64,000 nt of DNA from a bacterium (GTDB lineage Bacteria; Elusimicrobiota; Elusimicrobia; UBA1565; UBA9628). Location: positions 62,001 through 126,000 of the forward strand of contig JAJXVH010000001.1 of NCBI GenBank assembly GCA_021782205.1, written 5' to 3'. This document shows, piece by piece, positions 2,418-40,586 of the stretch; position 1 is the stretch's first letter; every line of letters starts with the position of its first letter. The position numbers were made by a program, and so were the translations under genes. The notes under the pieces are model-generated. The model saw nothing but the letters and a program-made list of their open reading frames with translations, was not told the origin of the DNA and did not search any database.

Positions 2418-5063
2418 ATGGCCGATAAAAGCCGCCGCAGCGCCGCGTACGCTCGCCCCGATGCCGAGGCGTTCGCGCACAAGGCGATCACGCTGTGGCT
2501 GCCGATCCTTTATTTCCTGATCTCCTCGGTGTTCTTCCTGCGCACCTACGACTCCGCGCAGGTCAAGATTTCAATGATGCAGATGGGCGGTTTGGGCCTG
2601 CTCACTCTGTGGCTGTGCCGCCTGGCGCTGGCGGGACGCGCGGCGTTCAACCGTGAAGATCTAGTGACGCTGGCGCCGTTCTTGGCGTATCTGGCTATCG
2701 GCGTGTCTTCTTTCATTCACGCCCCATATCGGATGGCGAGCGTGGACTTCTTCTTGCGCCACATGTTCTACATGATCGCCGCCCTGATCGCGATCTACGA
2801 GCTGGACCAGCCATCCGTTGAAGGCCTATTTCGCTGGCTGATCCGCGCGGCCTGGGTGGCGATCGGCTACGGCACGCTGCAGTTCATCGACACGCGCGCC
2901 TTCCCTCCGGGCGTAGGCCAGGGCATCGATCCGTTCGTTTGGCGCGGCGCGTTCGGACCGCGCGTGTTCTCGACCTACGGCAACCCGAACTTCTACGGCG
3001 ACTTCCTGGTCATCATCTTCCCCATCTTGCTGACCCAGTTCTTCAAGACGCGGCGCTGGAGCCTGGTGCCGCTGATGGCGATGCTGCTGGTCAACTTATT
3101 CGCGACGGGCACCAAGGGCGCGTGGCTGGGCTTTGCGTTCGTCTGCATGCTTTTCGGCGTGTTCGCGTTGACCTATTTCCGTGAGCAGAGCCGCCCCTAC
3201 CGCAAGTACGTGCTGGGTGCGGCGGCCGCGGGGGCGCTGGGCCTCATCGGCTACACCGCGCGGGACCTGGAGACGCGTGTCGTCTCGATCAACTTCCGGT
3301 TGTTTACTTGGGAGGCGACGTGGGAGATGATCCGCACCCAGCCCTGGATCGGCTCCGGCGTGGGGGCGTTTCCGCCGCTGTATCCCGCCTTCCGCCGCCC
3401 GCCCATCTTCCACATCGAGGGCAAGCACAACACGGAGACCGACCACGCCGAGGACGAATATTTGGAGGAGTTTCTCGACCACGGCATACTGGGTTTCGGG
3501 ATCTTCCTATGGCTGATCGTCAGCACCTTGACCGTCGGCTTTCGATCGCTCGGGCAGCTCACGGCGTCGCTGTCGCTCAAGGACGGCCGTCCGCCGCCGC
3601 GCGCGTGGGACCTGGCCGGACTGCTGGTCTCCTTGTGCGGGATGCTGGGCCACAACTTCTTCGACGTGAGCCTGCGCTTCGTTTCTTCCGGCGTTTATTT
3701 GGGCCTGCTGTGCGGGCTCATCGTCAACGTCGCGCGGGGCCGCGCGCTCTTCGAGCTGCATCCGCGCGCGCCCGCCGCCGAGGGCGCGGCCGCTTCACCG
3801 TGGCGCACGATCTCCGACCTGCTGATCTGGCCGGCGCGGCTGGCCGCGGTCGGCGGCATCTTCTATTTCGCCTTCCTGCGCGACCGCGCCTCCGCCCCGC
3901 CCGGGGCGATGATCGGCGGCATGTTCGGCGAGTTCTCCTCCATTTTGGGTCCGCTCGACCACGCCATGGCCGCGCCCAGCGGTGAGATCCTGCAGTGGTG
4001 GCTGGCGTGGCTCGTGTTCGCGGGCTGCATGCTCTCCTTGGGCTGGGCGCTGATCCGGCTTTGTTTCCTATCCGAGACGCCGGTGGTGCCCGCGATCGTG
4101 CTGGCGGCGCTGTCGCCGCTCTACCAGTTCTGGGGCTACTTCCGCGCCGACGTGCACCACAACATCGCGATCTATTTCTCCAAGGATCACGAGTGGGGCC
4201 CCGCGATCTCGAACTACCTGCGGGTCACCCAGCTCAACCCCGACTTCGTGATGTCGAAATACTTCCTGGGCAACGTCTTCAACGACCGCTTCAACATGAC
4301 CAAGGTGTCCATGCCGGAGTGGGGCGATCCCGGCAAGGATCCCCTGGACGATTACGAGCGCGCGCTGTACTGGTATAACGAGGTGCGCCGCCTCTCGCCG
4401 AACTACGTGCAGATGCATCACCAGGTCGGCAGCCTGCACCTGCGCCGCGCGCAATGGGCCATGGACAACCATCGTCCGCAGGCCGAGGTCGAGCATTATT
4501 TGGATTTGGCCATGACCCGCTTTCGGATGTACGAACAGGTCGATCCGGTCTATCCGCCGAATTATTTCCGCATCGCCCAGATCTACATGATGCGCAAGCA
4601 GTATCCGCAGGCCATTCGCACCTACCAGGAGCTGATCGCCGCGCGGGCCTGCGCGGTGGATCCCAAACTGCTGACCCACGAACTTCTGCGCCGCACCATC
4701 CTGTCCTACCAGCCTTACGTGCGCGAGAAGGACGCGTCCGGGCAAGAGGTTTGGGTGCATCGCCACGCCGACGCGCAGGAGCCGCACGACGCCGCGGAGG
4801 TCTACACGAACCTGGCCAACGCGGAGTTCCTCGCGCATCAGGCCGACCCGCACGCGCACGGTTACTTGGAGGCCGCGGAGCGCGACTACCGCCTGGCGCT
4901 GAGCTTCGTGCCCACCTACGATCAGGCGAGCAAGAACCTCCAGGTCGTTTATCGGCTGGCGCAGATGGAAAAGCGCCTGAAGCCCGTCTCGGGCCCGGCT
5001 CCGCAGGCGGCCCCGGGCCAGCCTTGGTTTACCGGCTATGAGGTCGTTCCGAGCAAGGGCTAG
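2418..5063 (+). CDS. O-antigen ligase/polymerase-like membrane protein with C-terminal TPR region
   Basis: 881 aa. Residues ~25-560 are strongly hydrophobic with many predicted membrane spans. The Wzy/WaaL-type periplasmic loop is recognisable around GSGVGAFPPLYP and the acidic, histidine-containing HAEDEYLEEFLDHGILG. The last ~300 residues are soluble and contain TPR-like repeats (for example YFRIAQIYMMRKQYPQAIRT). The family polymerises or ligates undecaprenyl-linked glycans in the inner membrane; the TPR part may recruit partners. Neighbouring glycosyltransferases support a surface-glycan role. Ligase versus polymerase cannot be decided. Confidence 0.82.
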   Translation: MADKSRRSAAYARPDAEAFAHKAITLWLPILYFLISSVFFLRTYDSAQVKISMMQMGGLGLLTLWLCRLALAGRAAFNREDLVTLAPFLAYLAIGVSSFIHAPYRMASVDFFLRHMFYMIAALIAIYELDQPSVEGLFRWLIRAAWVAIGYGTLQFIDTRAFPPGVGQGIDPFVWRGAFGPRVFSTYGNPNFYGDFLVIIFPILLTQFFKTRRWSLVPLMAMLLVNLFATGTKGAWLGFAFVCMLFGVFALTYFREQSRPYRKYVLGAAAAGALGLIGYTARDLETRVVSINFRLFTWEATWEMIRTQPWIGSGVGAFPPLYPAFRRPPIFHIEGKHNTETDHAEDEYLEEFLDHGILGFGIFLWLIVSTLTVGFRSLGQLTASLSLKDGRPPPRAWDLAGLLVSLCGMLGHNFFDVSLRFVSSGVYLGLLCGLIVNVARGRALFELHPRAPAAEGAAASPWRTISDLLIWPARLAAVGGIFYFAFLRDRASAPPGAMIGGMFGEFSSILGPLDHAMAAPSGEILQWWLAWLVFAGCMLSLGWALIRLCFLSETPVVPAIVLAALSPLYQFWGYFRADVHHNIAIYFSKDHEWGPAISNYLRVTQLNPDFVMSKYFLGNVFNDRFNMTKVSMPEWGDPGKDPLDDYERALYWYNEVRRLSPNYVQMHHQVGSLHLRRAQWAMDNHRPQAEVEHYLDLAMTRFRMYEQVDPVYPPNYFRIAQIYMMRKQYPQAIRTYQELIAARACAVDPKLLTHELLRRTILSYQPYVREKDASGQEVWVHRHADAQEPHDAAEVYTNLANAEFLAHQADPHAHGYLEAAERDYRLALSFVPTYDQASKNLQVVYRLAQMEKRLKPVSGPAPQAAPGQPWFTGYEVVPSKG

Positions 5064-6735
5064 CGCGGCCTTCGCGCTGGCCCTGGCGTCGGCCGCCGCT
5101 CCCGCGCGCGCCGAGCGTTGGGGCGACGCGCCCCAGCCGGCCGCGCAGGTGTTCGACGCGCTCCAGGCCGAGATGGCGCGCAGTTTGGCGCGCCTGCGCG
5201 ATGGTCAGTTCGGTCCGCCCTATTTCCTGGCCTACCGCCTACACGACGCGCGCCACTACGAGGCGGTCGCCACGCTGGGCGCGTTGACGACCGACGACCT
5301 GGAGCAATACCGCGTCGCCTACGCGGAGGCGCGCTACGGCGACCGCGCGTTCGACAACGTCGACCTCAGCTATCAAGGCGTCAGCCTGCCCTCGCCGACC
5401 GCTCCGGACGTGCTGCGACAGACGTTCTGGCAGTTGACGGACCAGGCCTACAAGGGTGCTTTGTCTGGGTGGCTTGAGAAAAAAGCCAAGCGCGCCACCG
5501 AGCTGGTCGCCGAGCGCCTGGACGACTTTTCTCCGGAGCCGCCGGTGCAGAAAACGGAGAGCCTGCCGGGCCCGCGCCTGAACCGCTCCCGCCTGCGCGG
5601 GCTGGCGCTGAAGCTGAGCGCGATTTTGCGCGACTATCCCGAAATACAGGAATCGAACGTCGCCATCGAGGCGTGGTGGGTGAGGCGCTTCCTGGTGACC
5701 AGCGAGGGCACGCGTCTTTTGACGCGCTCCGAGGAGATGCCCGACGAACTACGCGTCAACGCGGCGACGCGCGCCGACGACGGCATGCGCCTGGAAGACA
5801 ACTTGTATCTGCCGCTGAGCGATTTTTCGCAGGCGCCTTCGGCCGCGACCCTGGAGAAAATGGTGCGCGCGCTGGCCGACGAGCTGGTCGCCCTGCGCCG
5901 CGCGCCGGTGCAGGACGCGGCCGCGGCGCCCGCCATCCTGGACCCGGAGATGTCGGGCGTGCTGTTTCACGAGGCGCTGGGTCATAAGCTGGAAGGCCAG
6001 CGTCAGCGCGACCCGCACGAAAGCCAGCTCTTCCGCGACCTGGTCGGCAAGCCGATTCTGCCTGCGTTTCTGAGCGTGATCGATGATCCCACGCTGAAGT
6101 CGTTTAAGGGCTCGCCCTTGCACGGCTCCTACGAGTACGACTCCGAAGGCTCTCCGGCCCGGCGCGTCGTGCTGGTGGAGCGCGGCGTGCTGAAAAGCTT
6201 TTTGATGTCGCGCTGGCCGGTGAAGGGCTTTCCGGAGACGAACGGGCACGGCCGCGCGGACTGGCGCTCGCACGCGACCGGACGCATGGCGAACCTGATC
6301 GTGAAGGCCGACGGCGCGGTGCCGCTGGCGCGGCTGCAGAAGCGCCTGCTCGACCTGCTGAGCGAGCAGGGAAAGCCCTATGGATTCATCCTGGTCGGTT
6401 CGTCGGGCGGAGAGAACCCGACCAATCGCGAGTCGCCGCAGACTCTGGAGGTGCGGCCGCGCCTGGTCTACCGCGTGGACGCGGCGACGGGCGCGCGCAC
6501 GCTCGTGCGCGGCGTCAAGCTCGTCGGCACGCCGCTGGTGATCCTCAACCGCATCGTCGCGGCCGGAGACGACGACACGCTGGCCGACGGCTTCGTCTGC
6601 GGCGCGGAGTCAGGCTGGGTTCCGGTCAGCCAAATCGCGCCCAGCCTGCTGGTGTCCGAGATCGAGCTTCAACGCCTTCCGGAGGACCGCCTTTTGCCGC
6701 CGATCCTGCCGTCCCCGCTCCATGATCGCCGCTAG
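5038..6735 (+). CDS. exported TldD/PmbA-family metalloprotease
   Basis: 565 aa. The N-terminus (about residues 1-25, ending APARA) looks like a cleavable signal peptide, which is unusual because classical TldD/TldE act in the cytoplasm. The zinc-binding HExxxH motif of TldD is present as HEALGH at residues 311-316, followed by KLEGQRQ. The C-terminal half has the family's GSSGGENPTNRE and VGTPLVILNR segments. It probably cleaves peptides, possibly with the following paralogue. It overlaps the O-antigen ligase gene by 26 bp and the next gene by 14 bp, so the three form one transcript. Confidence 0.85.
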   Translation: MRSFRARASAAFALALASAAAPARAERWGDAPQPAAQVFDALQAEMARSLARLRDGQFGPPYFLAYRLHDARHYEAVATLGALTTDDLEQYRVAYAEARYGDRAFDNVDLSYQGVSLPSPTAPDVLRQTFWQLTDQAYKGALSGWLEKKAKRATELVAERLDDFSPEPPVQKTESLPGPRLNRSRLRGLALKLSAILRDYPEIQESNVAIEAWWVRRFLVTSEGTRLLTRSEEMPDELRVNAATRADDGMRLEDNLYLPLSDFSQAPSAATLEKMVRALADELVALRRAPVQDAAAAPAILDPEMSGVLFHEALGHKLEGQRQRDPHESQLFRDLVGKPILPAFLSVIDDPTLKSFKGSPLHGSYEYDSEGSPARRVVLVERGVLKSFLMSRWPVKGFPETNGHGRADWRSHATGRMANLIVKADGAVPLARLQKRLLDLLSEQGKPYGFILVGSSGGENPTNRESPQTLEVRPRLVYRVDAATGARTLVRGVKLVGTPLVILNRIVAAGDDDTLADGFVCGAESGWVPVSQIAPSLLVSEIELQRLPEDRLLPPILPSPLHDRR

Positions 6736-8695
6736 CCTGCTCCTGCTCGCGCTGGCGTCGCCCGCGCGCCCCGCCCCCGAGACGGACGCGCCGGCGTTGG
6801 AGCGCGCGATCCAGGCCGAGCTCGGCCGCGCGAAGAGCCAGCTCAAGGAAGACGGCTATCCTCCGATTTACTTCGCCCAGCTCACGGTCTGGGACCTGGC
6901 GGACTGGGACGAGTGGAGCGTGCTGGGCGCGCCGCGGGCGGAGGCGACCATGGCCCAGCGCATCGCGCTGGCCGACGTGCGCGTCGGCTCTCCCGCGCTC
7001 GACAACCATCCGAATTCACCGCGCGGCGACTATTTGGGCACGCCGATCGCGATGGCCGACGATGAGTTTGCCCTGCGCCACGCTCTGTGGCGCATCTTCG
7101 ATGAGGGCTATAAAAACGCTTCGGCCGATTTCCTGCGCAAGCAGGCCCAGCTCGTCTCGCGTGGCCGCGCCGGCTACGACACCGACGATCTTTCCGCGCA
7201 GCCGCCGACGGTCAGCACGTCGGACGCGGCGCCGCGGGGCTGGAGCGTCGAGCGGCTGCGGCGCCTGGACGCGGCCTTGGGCGATCCTCTGCGCGCGGCG
7301 TCGGGGCTCTTGGAAGCCGAGTCTCACGTGGGCCTGCGCCGCCTGCGCACGCGCCTGCGCGGCACCGACGGCCTGTCTGTCGACAAGACCGACGATTGGG
7401 CCAAGATCGAAATCGAGGCCGTCGCGTTGAGCCCCGACGGCCTGCGCGAGACGGTTTCGCGCGACTGGCATGCCCGCGTGCCCGAGGCCCTGCCGAGCGA
7501 AGCGGAGCTGCGCCGCGCGGGCCGCGACATGGTCTCCGATTTGGCCGAGCTGCGCGTCGCGGCGACGACCTCCCCGTTCAGCGCCCCGGCTCTTCTTGAT
7601 CCGTCGGCCGCGGCCGCGTTGGTCTACACGCTGGGACAAAGCCTGTCCGGGGAGGAGCAGCGCAATCCCAACGGCGCGCAGACCTTCCGCGGCCGCCTGG
7701 GCGACCGCGTTCTGCCCGAGACGTTGACGCTGGTCGACGACCCGAGCGTCGACTCTTTCCGCGGCCGCCTGCTGTTTGGCGCCTACGACCATGACGACCA
7801 GGGCGTTCCCGCCCGGCGCGCGCCGCTGATCGAGCGCGGGGTTCTGCGCGGGTTTCTGCTCTCGCGCTACCCGGTCAAAGGATTCCCGCTCTCCAACGGC
7901 CACGGCCGTGCCCCCCTGGGGCAGATGCCGACGGGCGTTCCCGGCAATCTCTTCCTGACGACGTCTCGGCCGTTGTCGGCGGCGCAGCTCCTTTCGGCCC
8001 TGCGCGACGAGTGCCGCAGACAAGGCAAGCCATACGGACTTTGGATTAAGAATCTGCGCGGCTGGAGCCAGTCGAGCGGGGGCGATCAGGGTTCTATTCG
8101 CATGCTCGCGGACGTCTACATGATCGAGGCCGCGACCGGAAAATCCCTGCGCGTGCGCGATTTGGACGCGGTCGGCACGCCGTTGGTGATGGCGGAAAGC
8201 GAGTTGGCGGCGGGAGAGGACCCCACCGTGTCGGACGTGGACGCGGGCGCTCCGGCCTCCGTGGTGACGCCCAGTCTTCTTCTGAGCGAGGTGGAGCTTC
8301 AGCGCTCCGAGACCAAACCCGAAAGGGCGCCGATCCTGCCGCCGCCGCCGCGCCCGACGCCGACGGCCGGCCCCGCGCCGTCCCGCCGCGTCGAGGCGGC
8401 CGTCGTGGAGGTCGACCGCTACAGCTTGTCGCGCCGCGAGGCGCCGCTGGAGTCCTTGGACGTCGACGGCGTGATCGCCTGGCGGCAGACGCTGGCCCCC
8501 GAAGGCCTGGTCGTCGACGTGAAAGTCGGAGCCGGCGGTCGCGAGGCTCTGCGCGCGGCGGAGCGGCGCGTGGCGGCCGCGATCGCGGCGCAGGTGCCGG
8601 GCGGGGTGCGCAAGACGGTGCTGTTCGCGCCGGCGGCGGCCGCCGCCTATCGCGCGCGATTCGACGACGGCTGGCCCGACGTGGGGCCGCGTTGA
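6722..8695 (+). CDS. exported TldD-like paralogue lacking the HExxxH metal site (TldE-like partner)
   Basis: 657 aa. It has a short signal peptide (LLLLALASPARPAP) and is homologous along its length to the upstream TldD-like protein: the segments around QRNPNGAQTFR and LLSRYPVKGFPLSNGHGRA match counterparts there. At the metal site, HEALGH is replaced by Y-TLGQ (residues 302-306) with one residue deleted, so zinc binding is lost. This mirrors E. coli, where TldD has the site and TldE does not; a secreted heterodimer is a reasonable inference. About 110 extra C-terminal residues follow a proline-rich linker and match nothing I recognise. Confidence 0.78.
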   Translation: MIAASLLLLALASPARPAPETDAPALERAIQAELGRAKSQLKEDGYPPIYFAQLTVWDLADWDEWSVLGAPRAEATMAQRIALADVRVGSPALDNHPNSPRGDYLGTPIAMADDEFALRHALWRIFDEGYKNASADFLRKQAQLVSRGRAGYDTDDLSAQPPTVSTSDAAPRGWSVERLRRLDAALGDPLRAASGLLEAESHVGLRRLRTRLRGTDGLSVDKTDDWAKIEIEAVALSPDGLRETVSRDWHARVPEALPSEAELRRAGRDMVSDLAELRVAATTSPFSAPALLDPSAAAALVYTLGQSLSGEEQRNPNGAQTFRGRLGDRVLPETLTLVDDPSVDSFRGRLLFGAYDHDDQGVPARRAPLIERGVLRGFLLSRYPVKGFPLSNGHGRAPLGQMPTGVPGNLFLTTSRPLSAAQLLSALRDECRRQGKPYGLWIKNLRGWSQSSGGDQGSIRMLADVYMIEAATGKSLRVRDLDAVGTPLVMAESELAAGEDPTVSDVDAGAPASVVTPSLLLSEVELQRSETKPERAPILPPPPRPTPTAGPAPSRRVEAAVVEVDRYSLSRREAPLESLDVDGVIAWRQTLAPEGLVVDVKVGAGGREALRAAERRVAAAIAAQVPGGVRKTVLFAPAAAAAYRARFDDGWPDVGPR

Positions 8696-32821: not shown

Positions 32822-33672
32822 GGGCCCACGAGCTTTTGAAAATCGTCGCGCACGCGCAGTGCCTCGAAATCATTGTCGTCGCGCGCTTTTGCGCGCAGGC
32901 CGGGGTCCAGGCGCAGGGCGGCGCTCAACTCTGCGATCGCCGGGACGATCTGCCCGGTCAACGTCAGAAGGGCGGCGTTTTCGTAACGCGTGGACGCCAA
33001 TTCCGGAGCCAGCGCGGCGCCCGTCGCCGCCTCGGCCGCGGCGGAGTTGATGTCTCCAGCTTGAAATAGAAGACGCGCGTTCTCCGCGTGCGCGAGCGCG
33101 CGGTCCAACCGCGCGCGCGGCCCGTAAACGCGCACGAGCTTGAACCTCCGCGTCGGACCGCCGGAGCGCGGCGCGTAGACGAGCAGGGCGCAGGTCGACA
33201 GCGCATTGAAATCCGCGCCGGCCAGACGCCACGAACGGCCGGGCCAGCCGCTCTTGGCGCGCGCGTCAAGAGCCGCGGTCGACAGCAGCACCTCGGCCAG
33301 GCCGGGCCCGGCGCCCACCTCGGTCCGCACGGTTTCCGGGTAGCTCGCGCGGCTGTAGCCCGCGTCGCTCAGGTCCTTCTCGGCCTTCGCGGCCAGACGT
33401 TCATCCCAGCTAAAAGCGCCGTCCAGCTCCAAGGTCCAGCTCTGCTTGGCGTCTTCCGTGCCGGGAGGAATCGTCAGCGTGCCGACGTGCGCCTCGATGG
33501 GGTCGTCGCGCAGCCCGGAGCCGCGCTTGGGATAGATCTTGAGTTCGAGCGCCACCGAGCACGCGTCGTTCCAGCCCAGAACCGTCCACTCCGTGCGCGC
33601 GACCGCGGAGTCCTCGACGGCGGACGCGGGCGGAGCGCCGAGCAGAGCGGAAGCGAGCAGTAACGCGAGCAC
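32818..33672 (-). CDS. secreted protein with C-terminal TPR-like repeats, unknown function
   Basis: 284 aa, family not recognised. GTG 33672 begins a signal peptide (VLALLLASALLGAPPASA). About 170 residues of mixed sequence follow, then TPR-like helices near the C-terminus (RALAHAENARLLFQAGDINSA and YENAALLTLTGQIVPAIAE). The TATAAT hexamer 6 nt upstream of the GTG decides the start over an open frame reaching 33828. It lies upstream of the kinase gene on the same strand and shares the TPR theme, but the kinase has its own promoter. Confidence 0.72.
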   Translation of the reverse strand: MLALLLASALLGAPPASAVEDSAVARTEWTVLGWNDACSVALELKIYPKRGSGLRDDPIEAHVGTLTIPPGTEDAKQSWTLELDGAFSWDERLAAKAEKDLSDAGYSRASYPETVRTEVGAGPGLAEVLLSTAALDARAKSGWPGRSWRLAGADFNALSTCALLVYAPRSGGPTRRFKLVRVYGPRARLDRALAHAENARLLFQAGDINSAAAEAATGAALAPELASTRYENAALLTLTGQIVPAIAELSAALRLDPGLRAKARDDNDFEALRVRDDFQKLVGP

Positions 33673-33678
33673 GTTGCG

Positions 33679-33684
33679 ATTATA
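33679..33684 (-). promoter_or_regulatory. -10 TATAAT of the secreted TPR protein gene
   Basis: Perfect TATAAT on the reverse strand, followed by 6 nt and the GTG at 33672. It is back to back with the riboswitch promoter at 33706-33734. Confidence 0.5.
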
Positions 33685-33705
33685 GAATTCCGGCGCCGCG
33701 AAAAC

Positions 33706-33734
33706 TTGACAGAAAAAAAAGTGCGTGATAGGAT
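33706..33734 (+). promoter_or_regulatory. promoter of the riboswitch-porin transcript
   Basis: TTGACA (33706-33711), a 17-nt spacer containing an A8 run, then TAGGAT (33729-33734). The predicted transcription start near 33741 coincides with the 5' edge of the aptamer. Confidence 0.65.
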
Positions 33735-33740
33735 GTCTTC

Positions 33741-33885
33741 GACAGCCTAAGCCGCCCGCCCTTCCTGGCGCGCGGCGCGGGGGACCCGACTCCCTGGAGA
33801 CAGGGACGGGGCGAACGAGGGCGGGCAACCGTCCGAGAGGCCACTTCCAAGGCCCAGCCCGTCAGCTAACCTCGTCGGCATTTGG
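33741..33885 (+). promoter_or_regulatory. cyclic-di-AMP riboswitch (ydaO/yuaA type)
   Basis: The leader between the promoter and the porin ATG shows the conserved parts of the ydaO aptamer in order: a 5' GCCTAAGCC segment (33745-33753), GGGGGACCC (33778-33786), GGGGCGAACGAGGG (33808-33821), GGCAACCGTCCGAGAGGCC (33824-33842), and the diagnostic 3' block CCCGTCAGCTAACCTCG (33858-33874) then TCGGC. The aptamer binds c-di-AMP and usually turns expression off. About 70 nt of expression platform follow; GGGAGGG (33884-33890) could pair with CTCCC (33928-33932). A G-rich Shine-Dalgarno-like run precedes the ATG. The assignment is by recall of the consensus, not by a covariance search. Confidence 0.82.
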
Positions 33886-33957
33886 GAGGGTGATGTTCGG
33901 CCCGCGCACCCGCGCGGCGCAGGAAATCTCCCACTTCGTGCCCCTGGGGGGTGCTGT

Positions 33958-35418
33958 ATGCTTGCGTCTCGCGCGGCCGTCCTACTGAGCCTATTATTTG
34001 CCGCGGCCGTTTGCGCGCGCGCGCAATCTTCCCCGGAATCCTCCGACGCGGCCCTGCGCCGGCAGGTGCAGGACCTGCAGAAACGGCTGGACCAGCTGGA
34101 AAAGGAGGTGGCGGCCGGCGCCGCCGGCGCGCCGCAGGCGGCCGTCTCCACGGCGGCCGCCGCGCCCGAGCCGCTAGAGTTCGCGGATTTCACCTGGCTC
34201 AACGGCAACAGCCGCGAGGGCGACACGCCTCTCGACACGAAGTATTTCACGCCGGAAGTGCTGGTCGACGTCAATTACATACAGGATTTCAATCATCCGA
34301 AGGATCATTCGATCGACGGGTCCTGCGAGACCGGGCGAAGCAACGAGTTCCAGGTCCAGCAGTTCGGCCTGGGCGGCGACTTCCACTACGACAACGTCCG
34401 GGCGCGGTTCATGACGCAGTTCGGCCTGTATTCGACGATGACGCCCAACGACGACCCGAGCGTGGCGCGCGGTCAGGGCAGTCTGGCCAACGCCTACCGC
34501 TACCTGTCCGAGGCCAACGGCGGCTACCACTTCGACGTGGGCAACGGCGTCAACGTGGACGCGGGCATCTTCCTCTCCTACATCGGCCTGTTCAGCTACT
34601 ACAACTCGGAGAACTGGGCGTATCAACCCTCCTACGTCTCGGCCAACACGCCGTGGTTCTTCAACGGCGTGCGCGTACAGACCTTCCCGACCCAGCATTG
34701 GAAGTCGGAGTTCTGGATCATCAACGGCTGGCAGTCCTACGGCATGTTCAACGAGATGCCCGGCTTGGGCACCCAGCAGTTGTGGCGGCCGAACGGCCGC
34801 GTCGAACTGCTGACAAACGACTATTGGGGCTACGACACCTTGGGCGTGCCCAGCCGCCAGCGCTTTCACAGCGACAACAGCCTGGAGGTGAAGTATTACG
34901 ACCACCCCGAGCGCATCCTCGACAAGCAGGCGTTTTCGCTGACGCTCGACGCTGGCTGCGAGAGCGGCGGCGGAGTCAGCTGCAACGGCACCTCCTCGAC
35001 GCCGGCCCAGCAGTTCCTCGGCTTCATGCTCTACAACCGCACCTGGTTCGACCACGACCTGTTCGGCCTCACCTTGGGCGGCGGCGGCATCACCAATCCC
35101 GGCCGCTACCTGGTGCTGGAGCCGCAGATCAACGGCGCTTCGGCCGCGTCCGGCTCGCCCTACTTCACGGAGAATCCCGGCCAGCAGTTCCGCGCCTGGG
35201 ACGCGTCGGCCACCTTCGACTACATGCCCAACCGCTTCCTGACCTGGCGCGTGGAGTTCGACCACCGCGAGTCGAACGTGCCCTACTTCTCCGGCCCCGG
35301 CGGCATCACGCCGCCCGGCGGCGACACCGGCGCTCCCGGATCTTCCGTGACCGGCTGGGCCCCGGACCTGAGCAAGCAGGAAAACCGGATCAACGTGGCG
35401 ATGCTCATTCATCTCTGA
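33958..35418 (+). CDS. outer-membrane beta-barrel porin, OmpL-like (BBP2 type)
   Basis: 486 aa. Signal peptide (about 1-22, ending ARAQ), then a short coiled coil (LRRQVQDLQKRLDQLEKEV, about 33-51), then a long barrel-like region rich in alternating aromatic and polar residues. It includes VDAGIFLSYIGLFSYYNSENW and a NGWQSYG turn typical of putative beta-barrel porin 2 proteins. It probably forms a diffusion channel in the outer membrane; the coiled coil may contact peptidoglycan. It is preceded by the c-di-AMP riboswitch, implying control by turgor, ion or wall status. Confidence 0.8.
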   Translation: MLASRAAVLLSLLFAAAVCARAQSSPESSDAALRRQVQDLQKRLDQLEKEVAAGAAGAPQAAVSTAAAAPEPLEFADFTWLNGNSREGDTPLDTKYFTPEVLVDVNYIQDFNHPKDHSIDGSCETGRSNEFQVQQFGLGGDFHYDNVRARFMTQFGLYSTMTPNDDPSVARGQGSLANAYRYLSEANGGYHFDVGNGVNVDAGIFLSYIGLFSYYNSENWAYQPSYVSANTPWFFNGVRVQTFPTQHWKSEFWIINGWQSYGMFNEMPGLGTQQLWRPNGRVELLTNDYWGYDTLGVPSRQRFHSDNSLEVKYYDHPERILDKQAFSLTLDAGCESGGGVSCNGTSSTPAQQFLGFMLYNRTWFDHDLFGLTLGGGGITNPGRYLVLEPQINGASAASGSPYFTENPGQQFRAWDASATFDYMPNRFLTWRVEFDHRESNVPYFSGPGGITPPGGDTGAPGSSVTGWAPDLSKQENRINVAMLIHL

Positions 35419-35475
35419 GCGCGGCCAAGCCGTTGCCCTCTTGATGCGGCGTTTCGGTTCATGCGATAACGAGTC

Positions 35476-37119
35476 ATGAGCATTCATCCGAACGCCGGGC
35501 AGCGGCCCGCGGCTTCCCAACTGGTCGACGTTCAGAAACTGATCGCGGCCTATTTCGACCGCGTACCGGATCCGTCCGTCGCCGCCGAGCGCGTCTCCTT
35601 CGGCACCTCGGGTCATCGCGGCAGCGCGCTGCGCGGGTCCTTCAACGAGGCGCACATCGTCGCGATCACCGAGGCGATCTGCCGCTACCGCAAGAAGGAA
35701 GGCACGGACGGCCCGCTGTTCCTGGCGCGCGACACTCACGCTCTTTCCGCCCCCGCGCAGACCACCGCGTTGGAAGTCCTCGCCGCGCGCGGCGTCGAGG
35801 TCCGGATCGACGCGGCCGACGGCTATACTCCCACGCCGGCGCTGTCCCACGCGATCCTGACGCATAACAAGGGCCGCAAGTCGGGTTTGGCCGACGGCAT
35901 CGTGATCACACCCTCGCACAACCCGCCGGAGGACGGAGGATTCAAATACAACCCGACCGATGGCGGACCGGCGGACACCGGAGCGACGAAGTGGATCGAG
36001 GCGGAAGCCAACCGCCTATTGGAAGCAAATCTTGCGGGTGTGACACGGCTGACGCCGGAGAAGGCGCTCAAGTCCGCGACGACGCGGCGGCATGACTATC
36101 TGACGGCCTACGTCGACGATCTGGGTTCGGTGATCGACTTCGCGCCGCTGGCCGGCGCGGGCTTGAAGCTGGCGGTCGATCCGCTGGGCGGCGCGGGCGT
36201 GGCCTACTGGCCGCGCATCGCCGAGCGCTGGAGGCTGCCGCTGGAGGTGCTCAGCACGGCGGTGGACCCGACCTTCCGGTTCATGTCGCTGGACTGGGAC
36301 GGCAAGATCCGCATGGACTGCTCGTCGCGTCACGCGATGGCGGGCCTGGTCGCCTTGGCCGACCGCTACGACGTGGTCCTGGCCTGCGACACCGACCACG
36401 ACCGCCACGGCATCGTCGCGCACGGCGCGGGCCTGCTCAACCCAAACCATTATCTGTCCGTCGCCATCGACTATCTGTTCCGCCGGCGCGACGGCTGGAG
36501 CGCGCGCGCTGGCGTGGGCAAGACCATGGTGTCCAGCGCGATGATCGACCGCGTGGCCGCGGGTCTGGATCGCGCGCTTTACCAGGTTCCCGTGGGTTTC
36601 AAGTGGTTCGTGCCGGGGCTCATCGACGGCTCGCTGGGCTTCGGCGGCGAGGAAAGCGCCGGCGCGTCCTTCCTGCGCCGCGACGGCTCCGCGTGGACCA
36701 CGGACAAGGACGGAATCGTCCTGTGCCTTCTGGCCGCGGAGATGACGGCGCGCGAGGGAAAAAATCCCGGGGAACTTTACCGCGGACTGACCGCCCGCTT
36801 CGGCGAGCCCGTCTACGAGCGCGTGGACGCTCCAGCCACGCCCGCGCTCAAGTCGGCGCTGCTCAAGCTCTCGGCCGAGGCGCTGGGGGCCACGGAGCTG
36901 GCCGGCGAAAAAATCTCCGCGGCCCTGACGAAGGCGCCCGGCAACGGCGCGGCGCTGGGGGGTCTCAAGGTGGAGACGGCCGGCGGCTGGTTTGCCGCGC
37001 GCCCATCCGGCACCGAGGACGTCTATAAAATCTACGCGGAGAGCTTCCGCGGCGTCGAGCATCTGCGCCGCATTCAAGACGAGGCGAGAGCCCTGATCGC
37101 GGGGTTGCGGACGGTCTGA
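35476..37119 (+). CDS. pgm: phosphoglucomutase (alpha-D-glucose-specific)
   Basis: 547 aa, matching the ~546 aa of E. coli Pgm. It interconverts glucose 1-phosphate and glucose 6-phosphate, feeding UDP-glucose and glycogen synthesis. FGTSGHRGSAL is at the N-terminus, the phosphoserine is in ITPSHNPP, the Mg-binding loop is DTDHDRHG, the sugar loop is GFGGEESAG, and the C-terminal phosphate loop is ARPSGTEDVYK. A GATAAC hexamer with an upstream TG lies 5 nt before the ATG, suggesting its own promoter. Confidence 0.95.
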   Translation: MSIHPNAGQRPAASQLVDVQKLIAAYFDRVPDPSVAAERVSFGTSGHRGSALRGSFNEAHIVAITEAICRYRKKEGTDGPLFLARDTHALSAPAQTTALEVLAARGVEVRIDAADGYTPTPALSHAILTHNKGRKSGLADGIVITPSHNPPEDGGFKYNPTDGGPADTGATKWIEAEANRLLEANLAGVTRLTPEKALKSATTRRHDYLTAYVDDLGSVIDFAPLAGAGLKLAVDPLGGAGVAYWPRIAERWRLPLEVLSTAVDPTFRFMSLDWDGKIRMDCSSRHAMAGLVALADRYDVVLACDTDHDRHGIVAHGAGLLNPNHYLSVAIDYLFRRRDGWSARAGVGKTMVSSAMIDRVAAGLDRALYQVPVGFKWFVPGLIDGSLGFGGEESAGASFLRRDGSAWTTDKDGIVLCLLAAEMTAREGKNPGELYRGLTARFGEPVYERVDAPATPALKSALLKLSAEALGATELAGEKISAALTKAPGNGAALGGLKVETAGGWFAARPSGTEDVYKIYAESFRGVEHLRRIQDEARALIAGLRTV

Positions 37120-37133
37120 GGCGCTGTTACACT
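37105..37133 (+). promoter_or_regulatory. promoter-like pair before the KdpB-like gene
   Basis: TTGCGG (37105-37110) and TACACT (37128-37133) are 17 nt apart; TACACT ends 8 nt before the ATG at 37142. The -35 part overlaps the end of pgm. Confidence 0.45.
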
Positions 37134-37141
37134 GACTCGCA

Positions 37142-38866
37142 ATGAGCGTGTTCGTGGAGGCGGCGCGCGGACTGCGCCTGCGCGCCGCCGTTTCCCGCCC
37201 GGCGGTGCTGACGCTGGAGTTGTCGGCGGTATTCTCGGCGTGGAGCGCGTACTCCGCGCCGGAGGGCCGCGCGGGCGCCGCGATCCTGGGCGGGGCGGCG
37301 TTGGGCGCGGCATATCTCATCGGCCTGTGCGGGGTGCTGGCGGAAGCGGGCGCGCGCAAGCAGACGCACGCTTGGCGCGAGGCGGGCCGCGGGCTGCGCA
37401 CGCGGCGAGCGTTCGCCGATGGAACAGAGGAACCGGCCGACGCGGAACTGCTGGTCGCCGCGGACACCGTCGTCGTGGGCACCGGTGAAATCATTCCGGC
37501 CGACGGGGTCGTCATTGAAGGCGCGGCGACCGTCGACGAGTCGGCGCTGACCGGGGAGTCCGCGCCCGTCCTGCGGGAGGCCGCCGCGCCGCGCGACCAC
37601 GTGGTCGGCGGCGCGCGCGTGCTCTCCGATCAACTCAAAATTCGCATTGACGGCCCTCCCGGAACGGGCTTATTGGCACGGCTGGCCGGCTTATTGGACG
37701 CGTCTTTGGGCCGCGCCGCCGGCCGCGAGTCGGCGCTGGCGGCGGCGGCGCTCCTGCCGGCGGCGTTCATCTTCGCTGTTCACCCGGAAGCGCTCGCGGC
37801 GGCGTGTACGGCCGTACGACCGGACGCGGCGTTCGCGGCGCTGGCCGTGTTTCTCCTCGCGTCGACCCCGACGGCGCTTGCGGCTCTGGCCTTCGCGGCC
37901 CGCTCATCGTCGGCGCGACGCTTGCTGGCGCGCGGCCTGCTGGCGCGCGACCCGCGCGCGGCCGAAGACGCGGCGCGCGTCGACCCGGTGATCATCGAGA
38001 AGGACGCGGCGGCGTTCGGCCGCCGCCGCGCCGCGCAGTTCGTCCCGGCGCCTGGAATCTCGGAGAACATTCTGGCCGACGCGGCCCAACTCGCGGCGCT
38101 GGTCGACGAGACACCCGCAGGCCGCAGTCTGGTCGCGCTGGCGCAGGCCCAAGGCCTGCGCGGGCGGCGGCTGGCGGATATTGTGGACCGCCGCTTCGTG
38201 CCGCTGGCGGCGCACACGCGCGTCAGCGGCCTGGACGCGGGCGATTTGATCTATCGCCGCGGCCCCACGGCGGCGATCGAACGCATGGTCGGCCGATTCC
38301 CTCCGGAGCTGGAAGTCGCGGTCGCGCTCATCCAGCGCGACGGCGACGAGGCGGTTGCGATCGCGCTTGGGGGAAAGGTGTTGGGAGTCGCGCGCATGCG
38401 CGAACCTGCCGACGGACTGACGGCGCGCGTGCGCCGCTTGCGTGCGGCCGGGCGTCGGATCGTGCTGGCCGCGATGGCGCCGTCTGCGGACGTGAGCGAG
38501 TGGGCCGGTGCGCTGGGGGTGGAATTGGCCGAGGCGGGAGCGCTCGCCAAATCAGGCGCGACGTTCGCGCGCGGTCTGCGGACTTCCCCTGGGGCCGAGG
38601 CGTCGATATTGAATTTACGCGACGATCCTTCGCTCTCCGTCGTCGCGGTCGACGAAGTTCTCGCGGCGCGCCGCGCTCGCGCCGTCGCCGACGCTGCTTC
38701 CTGGTTCAGCGATGCCGCGAAAGCCGCCTTCGCCGCTTTGGCATTCTGCTCGGCGGCGCGCGCCGGAACCTTGGGTGACGTCGCGCCGCAGGCCTACGTG
38801 CTGGCGGCCTGGAGCCTCGCCGCGCCGCTGACACTTTGTTTTGCGGCGTTGGCCGGCGTTCTTTGA
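37142..38866 (+). CDS. KdpB-like P-type ATPase lacking the phosphorylation site (probable pseudoenzyme)
   Basis: 574 aa against ~680 for KdpB. Homology is clear: actuator motif DESALTGESAPV (TGES at 137-140), GGARVLSD, and DAAQLAALVDETPAGRSL matching KdpB's nucleotide domain. The phosphorylation motif DKTGT is EKDAA (286-290), KG of the ATP site is RG (IYRRGP), the TGDN segment is AMAPS, and the TGDGTNDAP hinge is deleted. It therefore cannot run the catalytic cycle. The frame is intact over 1.7 kb, arguing for a retained function. No kdpA, kdpC or kdpDE is nearby. A regulatory or scaffold role in K+ transport is speculation. Confidence 0.82.
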   Translation: MSVFVEAARGLRLRAAVSRPAVLTLELSAVFSAWSAYSAPEGRAGAAILGGAALGAAYLIGLCGVLAEAGARKQTHAWREAGRGLRTRRAFADGTEEPADAELLVAADTVVVGTGEIIPADGVVIEGAATVDESALTGESAPVLREAAAPRDHVVGGARVLSDQLKIRIDGPPGTGLLARLAGLLDASLGRAAGRESALAAAALLPAAFIFAVHPEALAAACTAVRPDAAFAALAVFLLASTPTALAALAFAARSSSARRLLARGLLARDPRAAEDAARVDPVIIEKDAAAFGRRRAAQFVPAPGISENILADAAQLAALVDETPAGRSLVALAQAQGLRGRRLADIVDRRFVPLAAHTRVSGLDAGDLIYRRGPTAAIERMVGRFPPELEVAVALIQRDGDEAVAIALGGKVLGVARMREPADGLTARVRRLRAAGRRIVLAAMAPSADVSEWAGALGVELAEAGALAKSGATFARGLRTSPGAEASILNLRDDPSLSVVAVDEVLAARRARAVADAASWFSDAAKAAFAALAFCSAARAGTLGDVAPQAYVLAAWSLAAPLTLCFAALAGVL

Positions 38867-38924
38867 AGAAATGTTCGCTCGCGGGGCATGACGACGCAAA
38901 CGCCGTGGACGATGACGTCGAATC

Positions 38925-40586
38925 TTATTCGGACGCCTTGGGTGCCGGCGAATGATCTGTTACTCCGGCCGGCGGCAGGGAAATAAATTCCGGTTCTCTT
39001 CTGCCCGGTGCAGGACGTACCGGATTGGCCAGAACGATCAAGTCGCCTTCTCTAAAAAGAAGCCTGAAGTTTTTCCGCCGAAGAAGGTGCAAGAGAATCT
39101 CGCTGTATGGGTAGGACAGTCTCGCCCAATAGGTTGACATGACGACATAATCAGGAAGAAAGAGATTCCTTTCGAACGCGCAGTCGCGCGATCCGGGAAG
39201 GACCTTGATATAGTGGCGCATCGCTAAATGCGGCAAAAGATAGGGGTCGCACCAAACCGAGGCATTCGTCGGAATCAGCGCAAGGGCTTTTGGTACGGAC
39301 TCTTCCCAGGCCTTCGGGATCACTCTGACGTCTGATGAATAAAAGCTTGGGGCGGCAAAAAACCCCCATCCGGCAACGGCGAAGAGAACGGCGGCGGTCC
39401 GTCGCCAACGATTCGTGTCGCTGTGTTCTCGTATTTGAATCAACCCGTGCAGAGTCGCCCAAAGTAGCGGTCCCAGCACGAACGACGAATAGTACGATCG
39501 CAGGCCTTGGTACGCGGTCGACGGTCTTGCGAGTTGATTCGGTATCCAGGCGATGATGGCTGGCAAAAACGCGGCGCCGCTAAGAACCGGTATAAACGCC
39601 ACGTGCGACAATATCCGCAACACCGGCAATAGCTTCGTCGAAGGAACTGCGAGGGCGATGACAAAGTCCCAGGGCCGCGTCACGGCGTGCATCAAAAGTC
39701 CGCGTGGAGATCCGCCGAGAGCTTTGAAGTAATCCCAAAGTGACGCGTTGCCGACCCAAGGACAGTTCAAATGTCTTTGGGCACGCGAGATCACCGTCAT
39801 TTCCAGAAACCAAATCAAAGGCGACGCCGCGATCAGGGCCGCGCCGGCGCGTTTTTTCGGCCTTGCGCGCTGAAAATATAAATAGAGACCGACACCGAAA
39901 GAGATGAAGGGAACCTGCTCGCGCGCCGAGAACATGAGTATGCCGAACAGCGCGCCTAGCGCCGGGCGCTCTGTTTCAAAAAAATATGCTGCGGCGATAA
40001 AAAACGGCACGGCAAATACGCTGTCTTCCACGTAGGTGCCGGTGAGTTCTTGGAAACTTGGATGGGCGAGGCAGAGCAGTAGCATGATTCCAGCTAAAAG
40101 ATCCGAGCGGGAGAGGCGTTTGGCCAAACCAAAGAGAAAAAGCGGGACTGTTCCAAGAAGAAAGCCTTGCGCGAAGGCCAGAGCCCCGGCGCTGTTCCAA
40201 ATCCAAAGCAAGGGTGAAAAAAGGCAGACGGCGAATGCGAAGTGACTTGCAAAATAAGATTGGTCGCCGTAGACGGCCGTTCTGAGCCCATAGCCATGGG
40301 CGACGTTCCAGGCGAGATTGGCGCTGACGCCCGACATCGACGTCAAATAATAAATGCGAAAGCGCGCAAGATTCCCGAAGGCCAAAACAAACGGAAGGTA
40401 CATTCCAGCGGCCAGAATTCCGCGTGGATGACGTTTCCCGCAGCGCTCCAGGAACTGGTTCGCGCGTGGGATCGCATCCTCGCACAGAACAAAAAAAAGT
40501 CCGAGACCAAGGCACGCCCCTCCGCAAAGGAGCCAAGTCGCGTTTAACAGGTCAAAAACGAGATAAGGCCACCGCGGGAGCGTCAT
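38925..40586 (-). CDS. DUF2079 multi-spanning membrane protein
   Basis: 553 aa with about ten membrane helices and a C-terminal soluble part, resembling DUF2079 proteins, which have a glycosyltransferase-C-like layout (LARFRIYYLTSMSG, NVAHGYGLRT, YGDQSYFASHFAF, PDYVVMSTYWARL). The function is unknown; a lipid-linked sugar transferase is plausible. The gene is visibly richer in A+T than its surroundings (for example the A runs at 39054-39064 and 40491-40498), suggesting acquisition by transfer. TATATT lies 8 nt before the ATG. Confidence 0.78.
   Translation of the reverse strand: MTLPRWPYLVFDLLNATWLLCGGACLGLGLFFVLCEDAIPRANQFLERCGKRHPRGILAAGMYLPFVLAFGNLARFRIYYLTSMSGVSANLAWNVAHGYGLRTAVYGDQSYFASHFAFAVCLFSPLLWIWNSAGALAFAQGFLLGTVPLFLFGLAKRLSRSDLLAGIMLLLCLAHPSFQELTGTYVEDSVFAVPFFIAAAYFFETERPALGALFGILMFSAREQVPFISFGVGLYLYFQRARPKKRAGAALIAASPLIWFLEMTVISRAQRHLNCPWVGNASLWDYFKALGGSPRGLLMHAVTRPWDFVIALAVPSTKLLPVLRILSHVAFIPVLSGAAFLPAIIAWIPNQLARPSTAYQGLRSYYSSFVLGPLLWATLHGLIQIREHSDTNRWRRTAAVLFAVAGWGFFAAPSFYSSDVRVIPKAWEESVPKALALIPTNASVWCDPYLLPHLAMRHYIKVLPGSRDCAFERNLFLPDYVVMSTYWARLSYPYSEILLHLLRRKNFRLLFREGDLIVLANPVRPAPGRREPEFISLPPAGVTDHSPAPKASE

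Follow-up and report, generated by a model that had tools for sequence, protein, structure and literature searches.

A riboswitch of the cyclic di-AMP (c-di-AMP) class in the window, the whole 64-kb stretch of Elusimicrobiota DNA analyzed here, is quite probably the OFF switch of a porin-first K+-uptake operon, kept after kdp was lost. This class is established, as are its K+ targets and its action as an OFF switch. High c-di-AMP, and so high cytoplasmic K+, would cause the riboswitch to repress the operon headed by the porin gene. The ancestral operon in this small clade would have been porin-kdpABC-pgm. After the loss of kdpABC, the riboswitch would govern a porin gene that is followed by pgm and by a gene for a KdpB-like pseudoenzyme, and the outer-membrane porin would serve K+ uptake. 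Within this explanation, c-di-AMP binding, the OFF direction, translational control, the operon structure and the passage of K+ are the parts that we infer.

The leader begins with a sigma-70-type promoter, TTGACA-17-TAGGAT, that matches exactly at 33706..33734 (+ strand). TTGACA occupies 33706-33711 and TAGGAT occupies 33729-33734, with a spacer of 17. Across 33600-39000, no other promoter-like site occurs on either strand, and shuffling gives an expectation of 0.2. The aptamer match (33734..33895, +) starts on the last base of the -10 box. The match to the Rfam ydaO/yuaA family RF00379 scores 52.1 bits against a cut-off of 38 (E 3.3e-9) and covers the full-length model (1-134 of 134); RF00379 alone among Rfam families exceeds its own cut-off in the whole window. 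The aptamer has a P1 of 3 bp (33745-33747 paired with 33877-33879) and the conserved block CCCGTCAGCTAACCTCG at exactly 33858-33874. The initial annotation had recognized a ydaO aptamer here from sequence and proposed the Rfam search that now bears it out; the promoter, the conserved block and the porin ATG at 33958 were all placed exactly. Its estimate of a ~145-nt leader was too short, as the promoter and the ATG lie about 215-220 nt apart. Taken together, the leader has the features of a genuine c-di-AMP-class riboswitch, which would bind c-di-AMP. A chance match is a negligible prospect: the GC-rich leader speaks for it, but the E value is 3e-9, the other match in the genome reaches 16.7 bits, and the element is kept together with its promoter in two relatives. 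The 16.7-bit match was treated as noise and not as a second riboswitch.

The two relatives are G195, placed in the genus of the window's genome, and G202. Both share the promoter and leader upstream of orthologous porins, including a TTGACA-type promoter 5' of the aptamer, and most other loci have a -10-like hexamer immediately next to the aptamer. Positions 33744-33883 of the aptamer are identical to G195 at 138/140 sites and likewise to G202 at 138/140, while the synonymous-site divergence of the porin is 31% and 48%, the latter for G202. Because this identity persists despite 48% synonymous divergence in the porin, the comparison indicates that the RNA element is real and under selection. 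In a plain MAFFT alignment of 16 Elusimicrobiota aptamers, two-sided changes that keep the pair were found in 14 of 25 predicted consensus pairs. Conservation of the leader, which the initial annotation had offered as a check, holds upstream of these two orthologous porins and fails in four others of the phylum (G215, G227, G192 and G207), where RF00379 was not found before the porin. The riboswitch is absent in 4/7 close porin orthologues of the phylum, and all four of these adjoin K+ genes. RF00379 was also not found before a weak porin homologue in G208, nor before the porins of relatives outside Elusimicrobiota.

The window's genome (G000) is a draft of 177 contigs that is 95.6% complete. 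It encodes one DAC domain, in a 295-aa ORF that matches PF02457 with CdaA_N. A DHH-DHHA1 phosphoesterase ORF overlaps this CdaA-type diadenylate cyclase ORF by four bases. Judged by family, the genome would have a gene for c-di-AMP synthesis and a candidate gene for its degradation, and the diadenylate cyclase that the initial annotation had said to look for is present. The cyclase bears on the very improbable alternative that the aptamer belongs to a diverged form of RF00379 whose ligand is a nucleotide other than c-di-AMP. Some conserved positions of the Rfam consensus do differ in the aptamer, and the porin subgroup departs from it around model positions 70-80. Against this, the match is full-length and well over the cut-off, the genome has a c-di-AMP cyclase, and closely similar aptamers lie 5' of KimA-type K+ importers, a classic c-di-AMP target. 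A KimA-like gene is also found elsewhere in the window's genome, where it has no riboswitch (PDB 6s3k match, E 1e-103).

RF00379 was found in 16/341 Elusimicrobiota genomes, with one copy in each, and its targets were tallied in 15 of the 16 (G152 was left out). The aptamer lies upstream of KimA-type transporters, a type matched to PDB 6s3k, in G164, G334, G233, G230, G168 and G192; upstream of other APC permeases in G122, G130, G128 and G005; upstream of TrkH in G170; upstream of a CitMHS transporter in G324; and upstream of the porin in G000, G195 and G202. Together, these targets in the phylum reflect K+ uptake, the theme classically associated with this riboswitch.

The gene that follows the leader (33958..35418, +) encodes a BBP2/OmpL-like outer-membrane porin of 486 aa. 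The initial annotation had called this ORF a porin, and the assignment is upheld by a PF07642 match of 145.6 bits against a cut-off of 26.2. The protein is composed of a signal peptide, a coiled coil and a beta-barrel. Its structure model has low confidence (mean pLDDT 54) and about 16 strands, and the best Foldseek matches of this model are solved porins; by sequence, no credible relative was found in the PDB. The porin is 93% identical in G195, and its dN/dS (0.09 to G195, 0.22 to G202) points to purifying selection. Related porins adjoin kdpABC in G195, G215, G227, G192 and an Ignavibacteriae MAG, and adjoin a KimA-type gene in G207 and a Bdellovibrionaceae MAG. No K+ gene was found near the porin in two relatives (L022, L024).

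In G195, the gene order is riboswitch-porin-kdpA-kdpB-kdpC-pgm, and kdpABC is intact. The same site in the window is the porin-pgm gap at 35419..35475 (+), where about 4.6 kb is missing; the blastn alignment breaks at 35425/35459 of the window versus 6357/10997 of L037, the G195 locus. This junction is internal to a 129-kb contig. KdpA was not found in the window's genome or in G202, both of which are drafts, and a kdpD domain was likewise not found. The porin has no adjoining K+ transporter in either genome. Because kdpA follows the porin in G215, G227 and G192 as well, the simpler reading is that kdpABC was lost in G000 and G202.

The riboswitch might then be a leftover of the kdp operon, in which a c-di-AMP response is kept, control of the porin is irrelevant and the element is decaying. 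The absence of KdpA and of the kdpD domain from G000 and G202, and the removal of kdpABC precisely between porin and pgm, are what such a remnant would leave. Decay is not seen, however: the aptamer is nearly invariant relative to the equally kdp-less G202 at 48% synonymous divergence, and the porin itself has a dN/dS of 0.09-0.22. We regard the leftover as improbable, and a riboswitch that still governs the porin as the better explanation.

The phosphoglucomutase gene pgm (35476..37119, +; PGM_PMM domains) starts 57 bp after the porin stop and is possibly co-transcribed with the porin. Its orthologue in L037 matches TIGR01132. An ORF of 574 aa follows 22 bp after pgm (37142..38866, +) and encodes a KdpB-like pseudoenzyme in which DKTGT is replaced by EKDAA. 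Its TIGR01497 score of 202 bits is far under the cut-off of 527.9. It is 81% identical to a G195 paralogue (G195:C61:19355-21058) that coexists with the true kdpB, and its dN/dS is about 0.25, which suggests that the protein is maintained but is not a pump. The gene was considered as a sign of a working pump and rejected as a degenerate paralogue without DKTGT. The initial annotation had drawn an ion and turgor theme from this gene; the theme survives through the related porins that adjoin kdpABC or KimA, and not through the degenerate gene itself. The pseudoenzyme is conserved in two species (the window and L068:1362-3062), with DKTGT changed to EKDAA or EEDAA.

The presumed expression platform (33896..33957, +) was delimited from the sequence, an alignment of three leaders and folding. 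It contains a CCGCGC/GCGCGG hairpin without a U-tract, and this hairpin is conserved in the aligned leaders. A search for an intrinsic terminator on the + strand of the window leader found none, and the platform has no U-tract. Two alternative hairpins are predicted, one pairing 33926-33933 with 33945-33952 and the other pairing 33938-33944 with 33948-33954, and both would cover the Shine-Dalgarno (SD) sequence GGGGGG at 33946-33951. The predicted accessibility of the SD in the three leaders is 0.29, 0.01 and 0.10 with the aptamer fold enforced versus 0.38, 0.15 and 0.32 when folding is free, a drop in the same direction in 3/3 leaders; the drops are small and occur in a sequence of very high GC content, which makes the SD-masking step tentative. 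In the folding of the platform, the SD is partly paired in every state, with competing structures and weak energetics. Translational control through SD masking appears likelier than termination, if weakly and tentatively so. The riboswitch would then be an OFF switch at translation initiation, where the aptamer fold would lower SD accessibility.

The aptamer may instead be functional but act through transcription attenuation or Rho-dependent termination, or turn the porin ON. Elsewhere in the phylum, several leaders of KimA, TrkH and APC genes (L025, L026, L032, L034 and L035) show by eye a terminator-like hairpin and T-run 3' of the aptamer, and the conserved CCGCGC/GCGCGG hairpin of the window leader could belong to such a mechanism. 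The porin leaders have no such hairpin and T-run, the window leader lacks both a U-tract and a + strand terminator, and the ydaO switches known to date turn expression OFF (PMC6488665, PMC5575661). These mechanisms, taken together, are unlikely, and an OFF switch at translation is tentatively preferred.

The closest known system is kdpFABC of B. thuringiensis, which is repressed by c-di-AMP via a riboswitch of the RF00379 class (PMC6488665). It shares with the locus described here the aptamer class 5' of a kdp-type operon and the same K+ logic. It differs in that the present operon is found in a Gram-negative-type phylum, has a porin as its first gene, has no intrinsic terminator, and lacks kdpABC in the window's genome. 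Riboswitch-controlled kdp was found in Bacillales only, and genomes with both KdpD and the riboswitch have a KdpD without the kinase part (PMC6488665). The KdpD of G195 likewise has no kinase part; this KdpD-like protein (L037:12681-14318) combines a KdpD sensor domain with Usp and PTS_EIIA_2 domains and has no histidine kinase. The ydaO/kimA riboswitch of B. subtilis also belongs to RF00379, and KimA-type neighbors occur in Elusimicrobiota as well, but the target here is a porin and the platform is likely translational rather than a terminator. The initial annotation had described the class as mainly Gram-positive; it is not restricted to that group, and predictions in Proteobacteria, Cyanobacteria and Verrucomicrobia are cited in PMC6488665. 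The porin resembles the BBP2/OmpL-like family (PF07642) in its full domain match and its porin-like predicted fold; it differs from the family at large in that, in several phyla, genes of its subgroup are associated with kdp or kimA, a link for which no description was found in the literature searched.

The riboswitch class is known and its control of kdp is known in Bacillales, and the porin appears to be an undescribed target. The initial annotation knew of no described link between c-di-AMP and outer-membrane permeability, and no link between a c-di-AMP riboswitch and a porin was found in the literature searched, from which the principal survey (Nelson et al. 2013) was missing. Its statement that c-di-AMP sets outer-membrane permeability is better put as control of a K+-uptake module that includes the porin, as in the riboswitch-porin-kdpABC order of G195. 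With the G195 operon, whose first gene is a porin, control of kdp by this riboswitch would reach beyond Bacillales into Elusimicrobiota, and c-di-AMP would apparently control an outer-membrane protein. This suggests that a K+/osmolarity signal known mainly from Gram-positives can also govern an outer-membrane gene. The BBP2 porin subgroup is a candidate K+-uptake porin across Elusimicrobiota, Ignavibacteria and Bdellovibrionota. A bolder and somewhat doubtful proposal is that c-di-AMP sets, through the riboswitch, the abundance of a K+-dedicated outer-membrane porin, a target kept after kdp loss. If true, a diderm would use one signal to tune both the K+ permeability of its outer membrane and its K+ importers in the inner membrane. 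For diderms, this raises the question of the outer membrane as a regulated barrier in K+ homeostasis.

Several other arrangements were observed among the loci of the phylum. In L028 and L030, at about 3200-7800, KimA-type genes are present as a tandem duplicate with the c-di-AMP riboswitch between the copies. The riboswitch of G005 is followed by a small PTS_EIIA_2 protein (L035:9560-10066, -) and then by the APC permease, and that of G324 precedes a CitMHS-family transporter (L038:5023-6560). An nhaA-I RNA (RF03057; 48.9 bits, cut-off 37) at L065:2302-2353 (-) lies directly 5' of a KimA-type gene (333-2297, -) that is divergent from a porin-kdpAB locus.
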